Assembly (NCBI GenBank): GCA_020072655.1 | Contig: JAIQGH010000016.1 | Coordinates: 1-52,813 of the forward strand | From: Terriglobia bacterium | GTDB taxonomy: Bacteria > Acidobacteriota > Terriglobia > UBA7540 | Length of the DNA stretch: 52,813 nt | Direction: 5' to 3' | Shown here: in pieces, positions 1,172 through 51,121 of the stretch | How the letters are laid out: each line of letters starts with the position of its first letter | Position numbering within the stretch: the stretch's first letter is position 1 | Made by a program: the position numbers and the translations under genes | Notes under the pieces: generated by a model | Seen by the model: only the letters and a program-made list of their open reading frames with translations | The model's database searches: none | What the model was told of the DNA's origin: nothing

Positions 1172-3876
1172 TCAACCACCTCACGAAATGTCTTGGACCA
1201 GGCTGCGGCCAGGGAGGAAATGGAGTCCTGCCAAACCCCGTGGCCCGCCTCGGTGAGAATCAGGCGGGGCTCTTCGATTACTTCGCCGAGAACGTAATGG
1301 GAGACGCCGTCAAGGAATGAGTCCATTCCGGGAGGTACCTCAAGCAGCACTGACCCGACGAACTCTCCAAAAAGCAAGCCATCCCGGCGGCCCTTGATGG
1401 GCAGATTGAGGTCGATGCGAGCCCCCAGGCCGGAGCCGAAGCTCGCTTCGAAGAGCCGCAGAAACACTCCGCCTTCGGCAATGGCCGACCCCGAAAGATA
1501 GGCGCCCTCACGATGGAGGTGTAGGATCGTGTCCCACTGCGCCCGGATCGAGGCAGCATCGTAAGCGTCGAAAAGACGATCACCGCGCTGCCCGTAGCTA
1601 TCGGCATACACGCTGCCACCCAGCAAGTCGGGATTCGCCCGCCCGACCAGCACAATCCTGTCGCCGGGGCTCCTGAAGTCCTTGGTCACAATCTCCTTCA
1701 CGTCCGGGACGCGACCCAGCACGCTCACGACCAAGGTCGGAGGAACATCGATTCGCCTCCCGCCGCTCTCCATTGTTCCGGAACTCGAGTCCTTGCCGGA
1801 AATGAACGGGATGCCCAACTGCTCGGAAAGGTCGGCAATCGTCTCGACCATGCGCTTGAGGTCCCAGGCGATGTCCGGTCGCAAGCGGGGCGTGTAGAAG
1901 TTGTCGCACAGAGCCAGCTCGTGATAATCGGCGCCCGCCACCACGGCCTCGTAGGTTTTCCCGCGCAGGGGCGCGGAAACATAGAGGTTGGTCGGCATGC
2001 GATGACTCTTGCCGCCGAAGGGTCCAACGGCCGTCCGCCCCTGGACGGTGGTGTCGAACTGCGACCCCGCCGCCTGCTGGTCTGCGCAATGGTAGTGAGT
2101 GAGGACGCGTCGCACGGCTTCTCCCCATTCACTCGCGGTTGCTGGCTCAGGGATATCGAGCGACGCAAGCTGCCGCTGCGGCTCCGCAATCACCGTCGAA
2201 TCGATGGGACACGCCTCCCACAAGAAGGACATTTCCAGATCCACAACCTTCTGCCCTTGCCAGAAAGCTTCCAGCCGCTTGTTGTCCGTGAAGTGGCCAA
2301 GCACGGTGTGCAGGACTTCGTAGCGGTCGAGAATGGCCACGGTTTCCGCAAGCTTTTCCGGTGGCACGGCAACCAGCATCCGCTCCTGCGACTCGGAGAG
2401 CAGGATTTCCCAGGCCGTCAGGCTGCGGTCTTTGAGCGGCACGACATCAAGATCGATGCGCACTCCCGTCTCCGCGCCCATCTCGCCTACGGCGCAGGAG
2501 ATGCCGCCCGCGCCGAGATCAGTAATGGATCGTACGCACCCGGCATCACGGAGAACCGGGATGGCGGAAGTGAACTTGCGTTCCGTAATGGGATGGCCGA
2601 TCTGCACGGCGGCGAATTCCTTCTCGAGCGTTTCGCCGGTCATGCCAGTTGAGCTGGCGGTCGCGCCGTGAATGCCGTCGCGGCCGGTTTCGCCTCCCAT
2701 CAGCAGCGCCACGTCCCCGGGCCGCGGCTCGTCCTTGATGGCGTACCGGCGCGGAATCAGCCCCACGGAATGGCCCAGCGCGAAGCACTTGGCGTATCCC
2801 GGATGAATCCGATAGATGGGATGCATCATCGGGATGCCCATCGGGTTCGTGTAGTAGGCGGTGGCGCGAATGGATTCGGTCACGATCAGTTGCGGATGGA
2901 GCGCTCCGGCGGGCACTTCCTGGTCAGGCAGGCGCGGGTCCATGGTGCCCATGATCGTCGAGCCGCCAATGGGATACCCGCCCTTGCCGAAGCCCAGAGT
3001 GTCGCGGATCACTCCCCCGTGTTTGGTGGCGATTCCGCCGAAGGGCGCGATCGAGCTGGGAAAATTGTGCGTCTCGCCTTTGATGGTGACAACCCAGTCT
3101 TCGTAGAAGTCGAGCCCTCCCGCGTTGTCTTTGAACGAGGAAACCACCAGCGGGTGATTGATGCGTGCCGTCGCCGCGGAGAGCCGCTTGAGAAGCCCCA
3201 GGCTCTTCCAGGTCGTGTGGAAGCAGTGATCGCTCCAGGACTGTGCGAGGATTTCGATTTCCGCATCGGTGTGCGGGCGTCTCTGGGCGAGCTCGTGAGC
3301 CTGGATGGCCTTCATCTGTGAGAGCGGCGCGTACCAGGAGCGCGCGTGGGAGAGTTCGACCAGCTCTTTGTCGCTCAGTCCCGCGAGCAAGATCGCGCGC
3401 ACCGGGTCGGGCGTGCCGGTGGGGCGCAGGGTCGTCACCACTTCGCCCGGTTCGCGAACTCGCTCGACGATCTTGTTGTAGAGAAACCGCGCCGCGAGCC
3501 TCCGCGCCTCGGCCTCCTGCAGCCCCACAAACTGGTACCGGCGGCTAAGCCGCGCAAACTCCAGCCCGTTCTCACCCAGCGCCCGGGCGCCGGCCAGAAT
3601 CGACGGTGTCTCCGGGTCGGTCACTGCCGGACGATAAGCGATCTCCACGATGGGTCCGAGAGACGGGTCAAGCTGCGACCGCTCCGAAGCATCCTGGTAC
3701 AGCGGGTTGACCAGAAGCGGGAGAAGCCGTTCGACGCTGACGTCGCCTTCCAGCCAGAAGACGCGCTCGATCACCAAGCCATCCAGCGCGGGACAGCCGT
3801 GGCTGCGAAAGAACGAAAGCCAGCTTCTTGCCTCGGCATCGTCTTTGTATAGGGCATAGACGGAATGAATGGCCAT
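1168..3876 (-). CDS. purL: Phosphoribosylformylglycinamidine synthase PurL with extended N-terminus
   Basis: Synthetase subunit of FGAM synthase: FGAR + ATP + ammonia give FGAM. At 902 residues it is longer than small PurL (about 720-750) and shorter than the single-chain enzyme (about 1,300). The first ~200 residues resemble a PurS-like region and linker, followed by SDHCFHTTW near 215, KGETHNFPSS near 270 and a second AIRS-like half with SGKDSS near residue 690. With PurQ encoded separately, this is the intermediate architecture in which PurS seems fused to PurL; no separate purS is visible. It is translationally coupled to purQ. The start ATG at 3876 follows GATC without a strong ribosome site. 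Confidence 0.93.
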   Translation of the reverse strand: MAIHSVYALYKDDAEARSWLSFFRSHGCPALDGLVIERVFWLEGDVSVERLLPLLVNPLYQDASERSQLDPSLGPIVEIAYRPAVTDPETPSILAGARALGENGLEFARLSRRYQFVGLQEAEARRLAARFLYNKIVERVREPGEVVTTLRPTGTPDPVRAILLAGLSDKELVELSHARSWYAPLSQMKAIQAHELAQRRPHTDAEIEILAQSWSDHCFHTTWKSLGLLKRLSAATARINHPLVVSSFKDNAGGLDFYEDWVVTIKGETHNFPSSIAPFGGIATKHGGVIRDTLGFGKGGYPIGGSTIMGTMDPRLPDQEVPAGALHPQLIVTESIRATAYYTNPMGIPMMHPIYRIHPGYAKCFALGHSVGLIPRRYAIKDEPRPGDVALLMGGETGRDGIHGATASSTGMTGETLEKEFAAVQIGHPITERKFTSAIPVLRDAGCVRSITDLGAGGISCAVGEMGAETGVRIDLDVVPLKDRSLTAWEILLSESQERMLVAVPPEKLAETVAILDRYEVLHTVLGHFTDNKRLEAFWQGQKVVDLEMSFLWEACPIDSTVIAEPQRQLASLDIPEPATASEWGEAVRRVLTHYHCADQQAAGSQFDTTVQGRTAVGPFGGKSHRMPTNLYVSAPLRGKTYEAVVAGADYHELALCDNFYTPRLRPDIAWDLKRMVETIADLSEQLGIPFISGKDSSSGTMESGGRRIDVPPTLVVSVLGRVPDVKEIVTKDFRSPGDRIVLVGRANPDLLGGSVYADSYGQRGDRLFDAYDAASIRAQWDTILHLHREGAYLSGSAIAEGGVFLRLFEASFGSGLGARIDLNLPIKGRRDGLLFGEFVGSVLLEVPPGMDSFLDGVSHYVLGEVIEEPRLILTEAGHGVWQDSISSLAAAWSKTFREVVE

Positions 3877-45476: not shown

Positions 45477-45553
45477 GGGCCTGTAGCTCAGGTGGCTAGA
45501 GCGCACCCCTGATAAGGGTGAGGTCGGTAGTTCAACTCTACCCAGGCCCACCA
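45477..45553 (+). tRNA. tRNA-Ile (GAU)
   Basis: 77 bases with encoded CCA. Acceptor GGGCCTG/CAGGCCC, anticodon stem ACCCC/GGGGT-like with loop around CTGATAA (anticodon GAT), T-loop TTCAACT. The 3' 45 bases (45509-45553) recur at 47462-47506 with one change. Confidence 0.95.
45509..45553 (+). repeat. Left attachment repeat (functional tRNA-Ile 3' end)
   Basis: 45 bases identical to 47462-47506 except A in place of G in the T-loop (TTCAACT here, TTCGACT there). As part of the intact tRNA it keeps the gene functional. Confidence 0.8.
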
Positions 45554-45666
45554 ACTGAATCAGTTAGTTAGCGGAAGCCCCTTCGCCCAGCTCTTGCACT
45601 TGGTTACCAATTTGGTGCACACCCGTTCGAAAATGTGGGTTCTGAGAGGGGCTTGAAGGAGAACCG

Positions 45667-46506
45667 ATGACCCGGGCTTTAACTGAAGCGGAAATGAGAG
45701 GGAAGTTGCGCGCAGAATTCCCCGAGCACTTTAGGCACGCGTGGACTCTATTTGAACTGGCCCAAGGGGCTTTGGGTTCCTTCAAGGCAATCGCTGACAC
45801 ACCCTTCAAAAAGTCAATTGCGCTGATCGGCGGCAGGTCTTTCAAAGCGTACCATGCAATCCTGAACCTGTGTGAAATTGCGTACACCGAGGACGCGGGT
45901 GTGATCTTGAGGAGTCTATTCCAGCTACTGGTTATCACTCGCTGGTTGTCTATGGGGGATTCCGAAAAGAGGGCACGAAAATACTTGGGCTGGTTCTGGG
46001 TAGCGATGATGGGTGAACTGAAGCTGTACGAATCACGGATTGATCCGCGATTAGCCAGGGCGGCAAGAAACGGGTATGCAAATCACAAAGGTCTGTTTGA
46101 GTACATCGACAAAGACGGGAAGCAGAGAATGAGCAAGCAATGGTGCGAACCCGACGCTAGGAATTTGGAGCAAATGGCTAAGGAGGTGGACCTTACGACC
46201 CATTATGACGGTTTGTACCGCCCACTTTCGAGCGTGGAACACTCTGATGCTCTGGCGTACTCCGCTATGGTTTCGGAGATACTGACGACCCAAGACGGAG
46301 TCAGCCTTAACTTACACTCAGACATGTTCGTTCCCGCGCACGTCCGCAATGCTTTTCAGTACTTTGGTGAGATCTTCAATACGTGGAACCAGACGTTCGC
46401 TGTGCTAAAGGAAGATCACGTGAGACGTGTCCGCACAGAGGGAATTGACTTCTTCAAACAAGACATGAGTGAGAAACTGCCGACCGACTCCCCTGGAATC
46501 GCTTGA
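45667..46506 (+). CDS. DUF5677-like cargo protein
   Basis: 279 residues, mostly helical, without signal or membrane segments. KAYHAILNLCEIAYTEDAGVILRSLFQLLV and YRPLSSVEHSDALAY (an arginine motif and a late Ser/His motif) resemble DUF5677, whose members often sit in defence or mobile regions; the match is by eye. AAGGAGAA precedes ATG 45667. Codon use is AT-richer than in neighbouring genes, which supports recent transfer. It is the first gene after the tRNA inside the island. Confidence 0.65.
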   Translation: MTRALTEAEMRGKLRAEFPEHFRHAWTLFELAQGALGSFKAIADTPFKKSIALIGGRSFKAYHAILNLCEIAYTEDAGVILRSLFQLLVITRWLSMGDSEKRARKYLGWFWVAMMGELKLYESRIDPRLARAARNGYANHKGLFEYIDKDGKQRMSKQWCEPDARNLEQMAKEVDLTTHYDGLYRPLSSVEHSDALAYSAMVSEILTTQDGVSLNLHSDMFVPAHVRNAFQYFGEIFNTWNQTFAVLKEDHVRRVRTEGIDFFKQDMSEKLPTDSPGIA

Positions 46507-46624
46507 TCCTCTCGCGGGTCAATTCACCGCGTGGCTATTGGCCGCCCCGGGGCACGCGGAGTTGACATCAACTGGGAATCGGGTTACAAACGTGTGTATC
46601 AGTTGAAAACCTCGAGAGACAGGC

Positions 46625-47041
46625 ATGCGTCCTCCATCCTGGGAGAAGATAAGGACGCTACTCACGGGCCACAGGCCGGGCGGGGCTGGGGGGATCACGA
46701 GGCGTGATCAGCGCCACGCCTTCCAGGTGGCAGTGCTTTACCGTCAGACGGGCGGACTGTTCTGGTACAAAGGGACGACGGAGAATGCCAGCAACACGGG
46801 CATCCTGTTTCGCGGCGAGAAGTATATTCCGGTGGGTACTGCCATCGAGATGGCATTCACGTCGCCAGCACGAGCTGGCACGCGGAAAGCGGAGGGCGTT
46901 TTTTGCTGGGGCACAGTTGTTCGTACCGCGCCTCCTTCCGTACTCAATGCCCAGCCTGCTCTCGCCACGAAGATTCTGCGGTACCGCTCAAAGCCCCAGT
47001 TTCTTTCTAATTCTGATACACCCTTCGAGACAGCAGCCTAA
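46625..47041 (+). CDS. PilZ-like domain protein
   Basis: 138 residues. ITRRDQRHAFQVAVLYR supplies an arginine-rich motif like the RxxxR of PilZ; then ENASNTGILFRGEKYIPVGTAIEMAF corresponds to the (D/N)xSxxG strand, and GVFCWGTVVR to the following strand. PilZ domains bind cyclic di-GMP, but here Asn-Ala-Ser-Asn-Thr-Gly departs slightly from the motif, so binding is uncertain. It is the second cargo gene of the tRNA-Ile island. Confidence 0.55.
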   Translation: MRPPSWEKIRTLLTGHRPGGAGGITRRDQRHAFQVAVLYRQTGGLFWYKGTTENASNTGILFRGEKYIPVGTAIEMAFTSPARAGTRKAEGVFCWGTVVRTAPPSVLNAQPALATKILRYRSKPQFLSNSDTPFETAA

Positions 47042-47461
47042 GGCGACCTAGACTCCCAGGACTCTGAAACCAGCAAAACTGAAGACGACAGAACTTCCTC
47101 GCCACCACCCGAGTTTCGAATTTTGAAAAATCCGGCGAATGGAGTCTCAAGGTTTCAGGCAGGGGCAATGCGCCCAGCCGCCCCCCAGCCCGCTCGACCC
47201 TTTACGCGAGACCAGACTCTAGGCCGTCGTCGAGAACGGCCTGTCATCGCGTCAGGAGGCCCATAGGCGAGTCGCAACACCAGGGACAAGGGGGGTTTTT
47301 CCCCCCGTACTGTAACGTGGTTTGTCCCGCAACTACTCGGATAAGCCCTAATATGCTCTGAATGGCAGCTTAGGCGAGTTAGTATATTGACCCACCGAAA
47401 GGTGCATGAATACAGACCGAATCCCCATTACTGCCCACGGCTGCTATTATCGTTTCTAGAG

Positions 47462-47506
47462 CTGATAAGGGTGAGGTCGGTAGTTCGACTCTACCCAGGC
47501 CCACCA
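47462..47506 (+). repeat. Right attachment repeat (orphan tRNA-Ile 3' half)
   Basis: Second copy of the tRNA-Ile 3' 45 bases. Just before it CTAGAGC also matches the tRNA, but the seven bases GCACCCC between them are missing here. It probably is the original tRNA end displaced by the insertion. Confidence 0.8.
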
Positions 47507-47519
47507 GGGGCGCCTTCTC

Positions 47520-47570
47520 ATGCCCTTCTACCTCTATATCCTTCGCAGTGCCGCGACCGGAAGTGAGTAG
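47520..47570 (+). pseudogene. Truncated GIY-YIG nuclease start
   Basis: The 16-codon frame MPFYLYILRSAATGSE closes with TAG. It matches the first beta strand of small GIY-YIG proteins (M..YVYILRS...G), but the GIY-YIG catalytic core is gone. It lies 13 bases after the orphan tRNA end and may be the native gene that followed tRNA-Ile before the insertion. Confidence 0.5.
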
Positions 47571-47753
47571 CCTGTGCCGAAAAGCTCGGGCTGCCGAGGC
47601 CCCCGACTTCCTGGCAGTCGAGCCGCGGGCCTAGAAATCAGGTTCGCGCCGCCAGCTACACCCTGAGGAACCTCATGTTTTGTCGGGATTCTTTGGCGAG
47701 ATTGCTTTAGAATGAGGGCAACTTATAGATCGCTGGCTTGCCGGAGACTTGCC

Positions 47754-48944
47754 ATGAGACTTGCGACTCGACTTGCGGGTGTACTCATCACGTTACTGGC
47801 ATGGTCGTGGACCTTTCAGGCTGTAGGCCAGACTTTTCAAGGCAGCTTCACGGGCACCATTGTGGATTCGACCGGCGCGGTGATTCCCGGCGCAAAGGTA
47901 ACGGTCGAGGAAGAGGGCAAGGGGCTCAGCTGGACCGCGCTAAGCGACGAGGATGGCAACTATGACGTCGCCCTTTTGCCTCCCGGGCATTACCAGATGA
48001 CGGTTGAAAAGGAGGGGTTCGAGAAGATTGCGCAAGGACCCGTGACCTTGGCGGTCAACCAGCGCCTGCGCGTTGACTTTCAGATGAAGCTCGGCAAGAT
48101 CACCTCCACCCTGGTCGTCAAAGAAGCTCCTCCCATTCTGGACACACAGAGCTCCTCCGTGGGCACGACCATCGAAAGGACGAAGGTGGATGAAATCCCT
48201 CTGAACGGCCGGCACTTCCTCGCCTTGACGATGCTCGTGCCGGGGGTTGTGCCGGGCACCTCCGGCTCGCGTATCAGCGATCGCGGGGGAGCCATCAACG
48301 TCAACGGTCTGCGGGATTCCATGAATTCCTACTGGCTGGATGGCATGGACGACACGGCGATCGGGGTCGGCCAATTCACGGTGATTCCTCCGCTCGACTC
48401 CGTGCAGGAATTCCGCATGGAGACGGGCAACTACGAGGCCAAGTTCGGGGCGCATGCCGGCGCCCAAGTGAACGTGGTCACCCGGTCCGGCTCGAACGAG
48501 CTCCACGGCTCACTCCACGAGTTCTTCCGCCACACGCGATTGGATGCTCGAAATTTCTTTGATCCCGACGTGGCTCCCGAACACCGCAACCAATTTGGGG
48601 GCGCCCTGGGAGGGCCGGTGGTTCTCCCGGGCGTTTACGATGGTCACAATCGAACGTTTCTCTTCGGAGCATACGAAGGCCTGCGCGACCGGCTCGGTTT
48701 CTATAATCGAGCCCGAGTCCCCAGCTTGGCGGAGCGCCAGGGAGATTTCTCCGCCGACCTGGCCACGGACTGCCCCGTCCAGAATATGCTGGTTGATCCG
48801 CTGGCCTTGCTCTCCGGGCAAGTGCTTGCGGAGGCGTCAATTACGTGGCCCTGGTTAACCGCCAGATCGACGAGGACAATTACTTTGGCCGCCTGGACCA
48901 TCATTGGGGATCCAAGGACATCCTCTTCTTTCGTTACAACGTGA
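47754..48944 (+). CDS. TonB-dependent receptor, N-terminal part (frameshifted)
   Basis: ATG 47754 (MRLATRLAGVLITLLAWSW) has GGAGA six bases upstream and begins a clean signal peptide; ATG 47712 would add 14 residues. The carboxypeptidase-regulatory-like domain (SFTGTIVDSTGAVIPGAKVTVEE) spans ~30-110, then the plug (EIPLNGRHFLALTMLVPG, GAHAGAQVNVVTRSGSNELHG) and the start of the barrel. After QNMLVD the frame leaves the family; the frame of 48845-51121 takes over from SAGLALL (48797). One base seems to be missing near 48795. Confidence 0.85.
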   Translation: MRLATRLAGVLITLLAWSWTFQAVGQTFQGSFTGTIVDSTGAVIPGAKVTVEEEGKGLSWTALSDEDGNYDVALLPPGHYQMTVEKEGFEKIAQGPVTLAVNQRLRVDFQMKLGKITSTLVVKEAPPILDTQSSSVGTTIERTKVDEIPLNGRHFLALTMLVPGVVPGTSGSRISDRGGAINVNGLRDSMNSYWLDGMDDTAIGVGQFTVIPPLDSVQEFRMETGNYEAKFGAHAGAQVNVVTRSGSNELHGSLHEFFRHTRLDARNFFDPDVAPEHRNQFGGALGGPVVLPGVYDGHNRTFLFGAYEGLRDRLGFYNRARVPSLAERQGDFSADLATDCPVQNMLVDPLALLSGQVLAEASITWPWLTARSTRTITLAAWTIIGDPRTSSSFVTT

Positions 48945-51121
48945 ACCGCGTTCACGAGCTTTTGCCCTCCGGGACGAGCTCCCGCGCCGCCGGGACCAAC
49001 GTGCCCGGCTATGGAACCATCACCCATAACCAATACCAGATGGCCGGTCTGGATTGGACACACTCCTTCTCGCCGACCTTGCTCAATGAGCTGAAGCTCG
49101 GCTACAACCGCTGGCAGATTCGCGAGAATATCCAGGACCAGGGAAACCCTATTGCCCAGCAGTTGGGCCTGCAAGGCATTGTGGGAACCAATCCCATCGA
49201 GATTGGAGCGCCCAATCTCAACTTTTCCGGCTACGACAGCCTGGGGGCGAATAACACCGACCCCCAATCGGGCGCGGTCAATACGTTCCAGGTCGCAGAC
49301 ACGCTTACCCAGGTCCACGGGAGCCACTCGATGGCGTACGGCCTTGACCTGCGCAGCGTCGAGCGGGGGAATTTCTCGATCGACTCCTTGACGCGAGGCG
49401 AATTCAATTTCACCGGGACGGTGACGGGAGGGCTGGGAGAGCTCCCGGCGGGCGTTTCCCAACTTCTGGGCTGCAATCCTCCCGCCTGCGTCCTCGGGAA
49501 CAGCATCGCGGATGCTCTGCTCGGCTTCCCGACTTTCTGGATTGACGGCTTCGTGCAGAATATCTCCGGCCATCTGGGCGAATACGACTTCTTCGCGCAA
49601 GATACTTGGAAGGTGCGGCCCAACCTGACCCTCATCTATGGCCTGCGGTACGAATACAAGGGCCTTGCCACCGATAAGTATGATCGCTTCGCCAACTTTG
49701 ATTTCAACCGAGGTCTGCTGATGGTGGCGGGCCGGGGAGCGGTGACGCTCGAGAACCTCGACCCGATGACCGGAACATTCTCCCCGGTCGGGGTAACTTA
49801 TTTGGGGAGCACGGGCGCCAACCGCTCGCTCCAAAAACCCGACAGGAACAACCTCGCGCCTCGCTTTGGCTTTTCCTGGCAACCCTTCGCGCGCCCTTCC
49901 ACAGTGATCCGCGGGGGTTACGGGATGTTTTACAATCAGACCTTCGGCGATGTGTTCTTTCAGAAATCTGCCAATCCGCCCTTCGTCCAGATTGAGGCGG
50001 GCAACATTGGCGCGGCACTTCCCTTCGTCGGCAGCGGAATGATCGCCCCGGGTTCCGGCGCGCTGATCCAGCAGGCGCTGGCGGGAATCGTCGGGCCGAC
50101 GTTTCCGACCATGAGCCCGTTCCAGCTCAATTTCCGGGATGCCCAGATCCACGAGTGGAGTCTCGATGTGCAGCGCGAACTGCCGGGTTCGTGGCTTGTG
50201 GACTTAGGGTACGTAGGAACGCGCGGCTTGCGAATGCCGCGGGAGGTGGATCCCAACCAACCTCGGCCCGATCCCGTGACCCAGACGGCGATCTCCCCTT
50301 TCCCACAGTACGCGGGGTTTTCCTACACGGAATCCTCCGGCGCGTCGATTTACCATGCTATGCAGGTGAAGGTGGAGAGGCACTACTCGAATGGGTTGGC
50401 GATATTGGGCGCCTACACGTTCTCGAAATCGATGGATACCAATTCCAGCGAGTTCACCACCAGCCGGGATCAGAACTTTCCGCAGAATTCCGCCAACCTG
50501 GCGGCGGAGAAGGCCCTTTCGGATTTTAATTACCGGCACCGGCTATCGCTATCCTATGTGTACCTGCTCCCGTTTGGAGCGACCCTCTGGCGCCCGAAAG
50601 ACCCCAAAGTGAAGCTGCTGATTGCCGATTGGCAGCTGTCGGGCGTCCTCATGCTCCAGTCTGGCCCGCCGTTTACTCCCCAAATCAGCGGCGATCTCAG
50701 CCATGCGGACGAGCAGAACGTCATTGGGACGGGACTCCCCACCGACCGTCCGAATCTCACCGGGGCCAGCTTCTATCCCAGCAACCCGACTCCCGACCAA
50801 TACTTGCTGCCTTCTGCCTTCAGCGCTCCGGCGCCGTACACCTTCGGCAACGCGGGACGAAACATTCTGGTCGGTCCCGGGATCGGCACTTGGGACTTTG
50901 CCCTGATCCGCAGACTGCCCCTGGGGGAGAAAAAAATGTTGGAGTTTCGGACGGAGTTCTTCAACCTGACGAATCATCCCAACTTCGACATCCCTCGGCG
51001 AGATGTGGCCTCGCCGAGCTTCGGCAAGATCTTCAACACGCTCCGCCCCCTTGCCGGCCCCGCTTCGGGGGGACCGGGTGAGCCCCGGCAGGTTCAGTTC
51101 GCGTTAAGATTTGAGTGGTAG
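48845..51121 (+). CDS. TonB-dependent receptor, beta-barrel part (frameshifted)
   Basis: Its apparent start is a GTG inside GVNYVALVNRQ; the frame is open back to 48797 and continues the receptor begun at 47754. 758 residues of barrel: NYFGRLDHHWGSKDILFFRYN, FAQDTWKVRPNLTLIYGLRYEY, APRFGFSWQPFARPSTVIRGGYG, WSLDVQRELPGSWLVDLGYVGTRG, and a final LRFEW with a terminal aromatic residue. Together the two parts make an Oar-like receptor of ~1,120 residues. Ligand unknown. Another receptor gene follows 94 bases later. Confidence 0.87.
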   Translation: MALVNRQIDEDNYFGRLDHHWGSKDILFFRYNVNRVHELLPSGTSSRAAGTNVPGYGTITHNQYQMAGLDWTHSFSPTLLNELKLGYNRWQIRENIQDQGNPIAQQLGLQGIVGTNPIEIGAPNLNFSGYDSLGANNTDPQSGAVNTFQVADTLTQVHGSHSMAYGLDLRSVERGNFSIDSLTRGEFNFTGTVTGGLGELPAGVSQLLGCNPPACVLGNSIADALLGFPTFWIDGFVQNISGHLGEYDFFAQDTWKVRPNLTLIYGLRYEYKGLATDKYDRFANFDFNRGLLMVAGRGAVTLENLDPMTGTFSPVGVTYLGSTGANRSLQKPDRNNLAPRFGFSWQPFARPSTVIRGGYGMFYNQTFGDVFFQKSANPPFVQIEAGNIGAALPFVGSGMIAPGSGALIQQALAGIVGPTFPTMSPFQLNFRDAQIHEWSLDVQRELPGSWLVDLGYVGTRGLRMPREVDPNQPRPDPVTQTAISPFPQYAGFSYTESSGASIYHAMQVKVERHYSNGLAILGAYTFSKSMDTNSSEFTTSRDQNFPQNSANLAAEKALSDFNYRHRLSLSYVYLLPFGATLWRPKDPKVKLLIADWQLSGVLMLQSGPPFTPQISGDLSHADEQNVIGTGLPTDRPNLTGASFYPSNPTPDQYLLPSAFSAPAPYTFGNAGRNILVGPGIGTWDFALIRRLPLGEKKMLEFRTEFFNLTNHPNFDIPRRDVASPSFGKIFNTLRPLAGPASGGPGEPRQVQFALRFEW

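Follow-up and report, generated by a model that had tools for sequence, protein, structure and literature searches.

A small island behind the tRNA-Ile gene of a Terriglobia bacterium (Acidobacteriota) very probably derives from an integrative element that used this tRNA and lost its integrase by deletion, which makes it a fossil resembling the cis-mobilizable elements (CIMEs). This conclusion follows from an integrase stub at the left end of the island taken together with the occupied, broken and empty sites found in relatives. The features discussed below lie in the window, the whole stretch of 52,813 nucleotides that was analysed (contig JAIQGH010000016.1), and their coordinates are collected in Table 1.

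Table 1. Features of the tRNA-Ile island and its borders (window coordinates)
Feature	Position	Strand	Basis
tRNA-Ile(GAT), intact	45477..45553	+	ARAGORN; same tRNA-Ile in nearly all relatives examined
Left repeat (putative attL core), anticodon-loop-to-CCA part of tRNA-Ile	45509-45553	+	Repeat finder
3'-end remnant of a tyrosine-integrase gene (...GVHQIGNQVQELGEGASAN*), stop codon at 45564	~45564..45634	-	nhmmer integrase-tail profile; translations; ungapped identity
Paired arm-like motif TTGGTTACCAATTTGGTGCACACC, 24 bp, within the integrase tail	45600..45623	+	Motif search across 41 genomes
DUF5677 protein, 279 aa (cargo 1)	45667..46506	+	PF18928, E=2e-14
PilZ-domain protein, 138 aa (cargo 2)	46625..47041	+	PF07238 at its cut-off; RxxxR and NxSxxG motifs
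Right end, non-coding	47042..47461	.	GCATGAATA begins 58 nt before right repeat
Right repeat (putative attR core), probably the displaced original tRNA-Ile 3' part, one A-to-G change	47462-47506	+	Repeat finder
Truncated GIY-YIG gene (MPFYLYILRSAATGSE*), 16-codon remnant	47520..47570	+	Same gene start at empty sites in relatives

The two repeats that bound the island are 45 bp long, identical at 44 positions and spaced 1953 bp apart. Such a pair is expected by chance within the window about 1e-16 times, and the 45-bp repeat has just two copies in the 4.36-Mb host assembly. The sole mismatch falls in the T-loop, where position 26 of the repeat has changed from A to G; on either side of it the copies match exactly over no more than 25 and 19 bp. 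The change is in the downstream copy, because the copy within the tRNA gene matches the sequence of nearly all relatives. ARAGORN and the repeat finder agree with the first-pass annotation, which had described the anticodon-to-CCA part of tRNA-Ile as repeated 1,953 bases downstream with one T-loop difference. Its attribution of the repeat to a tyrosine recombinase working on the 3' end of the tRNA likewise remains the best explanation.

The stub was recognized with an nhmmer model built from the integrase 3' tails of 10 relatives, which, when run on the whole window, gave a single significant match (45560-45634, E=1.6e-7). The roughly 75 bases past the tRNA CCA, read on the minus strand, are the final 20-24 codons of a gene for a tyrosine integrase, and the C-terminus of an intact integrase from the same genus (G001:C141, GVHQIGNLAGSVIKSLHAN*) is equal in length to that of the stub. 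Ungapped identity of these first 75 nt to the nearest integrase tails is 41-46/75, versus 18.8 +/- 3.8 at random places; the tail at tRNA-Asn, which is shifted by a base, scores 29/75. Sequence comparison thus identifies the left end as the stub left by the loss of an integrase gene. The earlier statement that the island has no integrase was correct in that no full gene is present, but it overlooked these last codons, which the profile detects.

The 24-bp motif within the stub has 11 occurrences across 41 genomes and none in a reversed control. It is exactly or almost identical to integrase-gene tails beside tRNAs in related Acidobacteriota, matching those at tRNA-Arg and tRNA-Pro as well as that of the same-genus integrase. 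The distance from motif to CCA is 46 nt in the window, likewise at tRNA-Ile (G020), tRNA-Arg (G018) and tRNA-Pro (G017), and 47 nt at tRNA-Asn (G017). Most of the other motif sites lie within integrase tails adjoining tRNAs, and for three the fetched stretch contains neither an integrase nor a tRNA. The tail motif is also present in integrases that sit 5' of tRNA-Val rather than 3' of it, at L134 (G001:C141), L135 (G016) and L136 (G004).

A search for the 45-bp sequence in 61 genomes found the same tRNA-Ile in most family members and additional downstream copies in five of them. G012 has two copies in tandem (units of 1,670 and 1,732 bp), G005 and G021 have one each (903 and 1,668 bp), and G019 and G020 have one each on other contigs. 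In all five the repeats begin no more than two bases from the anticodon loop; the duplication in the window likewise starts, within two bases, at the crossover region common to these sibling elements. Full-length tyrosine integrases lie beside the same tRNA-Ile in G009 and G030, with the 3' end facing the CCA, and the integrase in this position in G019 is cut by the contig end. Only pieces of integrase are left at the same tRNA in seven relatives (G012, G005, G010, G013, G014, G020 and G023), and in G012 the broken gene joins codons 1-67 to about 373-413. Small integrase-poor islands of 0.9-1.7 kb at this tRNA-Ile carry PIN, HTH_3, DUF5678 and weak ParD-like genes.

The first-pass annotation had suggested looking for an empty site in which the tRNA is followed directly by the GIY-YIG gene, and such sites were found in G022, G018 and G023, where 11-12 bp separate the tRNA-Ile CCA from the GIY-YIG start codon. 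In G023 an integrase remnant lies farther downstream of the empty site, and in G020 the GIY-YIG start is 11 bp after the second tRNA copy. In the window, 13 bp lie between the right repeat and MPFYLYILRSAATG, the start of the GIY-YIG gene. The GIY-YIG remnant is the native downstream neighbour and shows where the tRNA gene used to end. An M16 peptidase gene upstream of tRNA-Ile is conserved in five relatives. The empty sites come from other genera, and the sole genome of the same genus has a tRNA-Ile without the M16 neighbour.

A different kind of second tRNA-Ile 3' part, in which a CCCGA/TCGGG stem replaces the anticodon arm, lies just downstream of tRNA-Ile in some relatives: L050 (G023) 2970-3351, G003:C144:7955-7987 and G004:C161:10340-10373. 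The 89-aa GIY-YIG gene of G023 ends inside such a part, which may perhaps represent a cassette of GIY-YIG plus tRNA end.

The history of the island can be pictured as follows. A tyrosine integrase would have inserted the element at the anticodon loop of tRNA-Ile, and the tRNA 3' part carried by the element would have rebuilt the gene, displacing the original 3' part 1,953 bp downstream; the repeat and the empty sites point to both steps. A later deletion presumably took the integrase gene except for the observed stub, and probably other element genes as well, with the foreign DUF5677 and PilZ genes surviving between the repeats. Mobility today is conceivable only if the integrase of another element still recognizes the putative ends. 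The first-pass annotation had left the choice between a decayed element and a minimal passenger that depends on an integrase elsewhere; decay is now the favoured reading, and the minimal passenger less so, because the left end consists of the 3' tail of an integrase gene since deleted.

The right arm counts against this explanation, being mostly unlike that of the sibling elements. The position of GCATGAATA relative to the right repeat is that of GCATRAATAGCGG in siblings, and the rest of the arm gave no match to the sibling-arm profile. Homology to the sibling right arms was accordingly set aside, the profile search having left just a 9-mer at the right offset. Class-wide, the right arm had matches in 3 of 399 genomes, which all belong to the same family. 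Either severe erosion or descent from another type of element may account for the right end. In no relative was the cargo found together with an intact integrase, and the parent element was not found.

The interior of the island has a GC content of 54.5%, versus 61.8% outside, and lies below all 510 comparison stretches of equal length, in keeping with the AT-richer interior noted earlier; GC3 is 0.62-0.65 in the cargo genes versus 0.76-0.87 in their neighbours. By composition, the cargo looks foreign. The only genes between the repeats are DUF5677 and PilZ, with no transfer genes. Both had been proposed from the sequence, and both assignments are upheld, the first by its Pfam match and the second, whose match is only at the cut-off, also by its motifs and by PilZ-like paralogues in relatives (38-45% identity, good alignment), which are common across this bacterial family. 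In the DUF5677 protein R82 and H192 are invariant and W159 and Y184 near-invariant. Its predicted fold is a confident helical model (mean pLDDT 83), for which the PDB yielded no match with E below 0.001 and no functional clue. The DUF5677 family is scattered, with members above the family cut-off in 14 of 61 genomes, and no close relatives were found among the genome contigs, plasmids, phages and viral contigs searched; neither cargo gene matched anything in the plasmids, phages and viral contigs.

Could the cargo explain why the island has persisted? If the two genes formed a module for defence or c-di-GMP signalling, this would be compatible with descent from an integrative element; both genes look intact and run in the same direction, and the PilZ protein carries c-di-GMP-binding motifs. 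Such a module is nevertheless improbable. The cargo had 0 matches to PADLOC defence families, so that the earlier suggestion of a small defence module gained no support, PilZ paralogues are common in the family, and the DUF5677 model lacks a significant fold match. DUF5677 and PilZ were never found together elsewhere in the genomes searched, where the stretches around DUF5677 members were examined, and a conserved cargo pair is therefore rejected for those genomes. The first-pass annotation had suggested looking for the same cargo pair beside other tRNAs; besides the lack of any second pair, DUF5677 relatives are not consistently tRNA-adjacent.

A matching integrase in intact form did not turn up in the host assembly, although one elsewhere in the host could be missing from it because the genome is a draft (209 contigs, ~96% complete). 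The tyrosine recombinases of the assembly are one fragment of this type and two distant ones. The 128-aa fragment (G000:C208:21031-21228), on another contig, is the sole close relative of this type there and is 74% identical to codons 327-392 of the G009 integrase; no tRNA was found near it in the fetched stretch.

An alternative to decay is that selection keeps the short ends, among them the integrase tail with its arm-like motif, so that the island would be a non-autonomous mobile element moved in trans by related integrases while its cargo is swapped. Consistent with this are the exact conservation of the left motif, the related intact integrase in the same genus (G001:C141) and the occupation of this tRNA-Ile by several other small islands, poor in integrase and with different cargo (PIN, HTH, DUF5678), which stand in tandem in G012. 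However, the paired motif is not kept in the right arm, neither the island nor the cargo pair turned up a second time anywhere searched, and the sibling remnants keep differing pieces of integrase, as random deletion predicts, leaving the proposal unlikely. There is, similarly, only a slim chance that tRNA-Ile in this Acidobacteriota family generally hosts non-autonomous mini-islands of 0.9-2 kb that exchange cargo and keep their ends for the integrases of other elements. Unrelated DNA trapped by an assembly join or by local duplication of the tRNA 3' end would dispense with an integrative element altogether, and the assembly is indeed a draft in 209 contigs. This origin is highly improbable: the stub of a tRNA-targeting integrase adjoins the CCA, several relatives share this architecture, and exact runs of 25 and 19 bp are too short for the usual k-mer misjoin by assemblers.

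As an integrase-deleted derivative, the island is a known kind of genomic fossil and a new but ordinary example of it. CIMEs have lost their integration and transfer genes and kept attL and attR, and their tandem accretion has been described (PMC5704250). The island similarly has attL/attR-like 45-bp repeats at both ends, no transfer genes and no integration genes save the last 20-24 integrase codons, and tandem accretion is seen in sibling G012. It differs in being very small and in carrying an integrase stub. CIMEs derive from ICEs or IMEs, whereas the parent here is known as integrase-bearing only (relatives have an integrase, and G009 also a primase-like gene); the ends in the window are putative att sites. 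At the Dehalococcoides ssrA locus, 15 integrase-free islands are possible CIMEs (PMC3146451). There too the borders are formed by the gene for an RNA and by a repeat of that gene's 3' end, some islands lack an integrase, and islands stand in tandem at one site, but the enzyme is a serine recombinase acting at tmRNA, in contrast to a tyrosine recombinase at tRNA-Ile. The tRNA-targeting, phage-type tyrosine integrases (PHROG 1) of relatives such as G009 and G030 share with the window the tRNA-Ile and the position of the tail beside the CCA, but the window retains only 20-24 codons of the integrase. An "integrase-free" tRNA island can thus be traced to its integrase through the last codons beside the tRNA, and a single site in an under-studied soil phylum allows full, broken, stripped and empty states of an element to be compared across genera.

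Two minor observations concern the right side of the locus. The non-coding right part of the island contains a nested inverted repeat, GGGACAA..GGGGGGTTTTTCCCCCC..TTTGTCCC, at about 47287-47332. To the right of the island, a TonB-dependent outer-membrane gene (47712-51121) is split into two overlapping frames that cover positions 1-98 and 150-838 of Pfam OMP_b-brl_4, reflecting either a frameshift or a sequence error.
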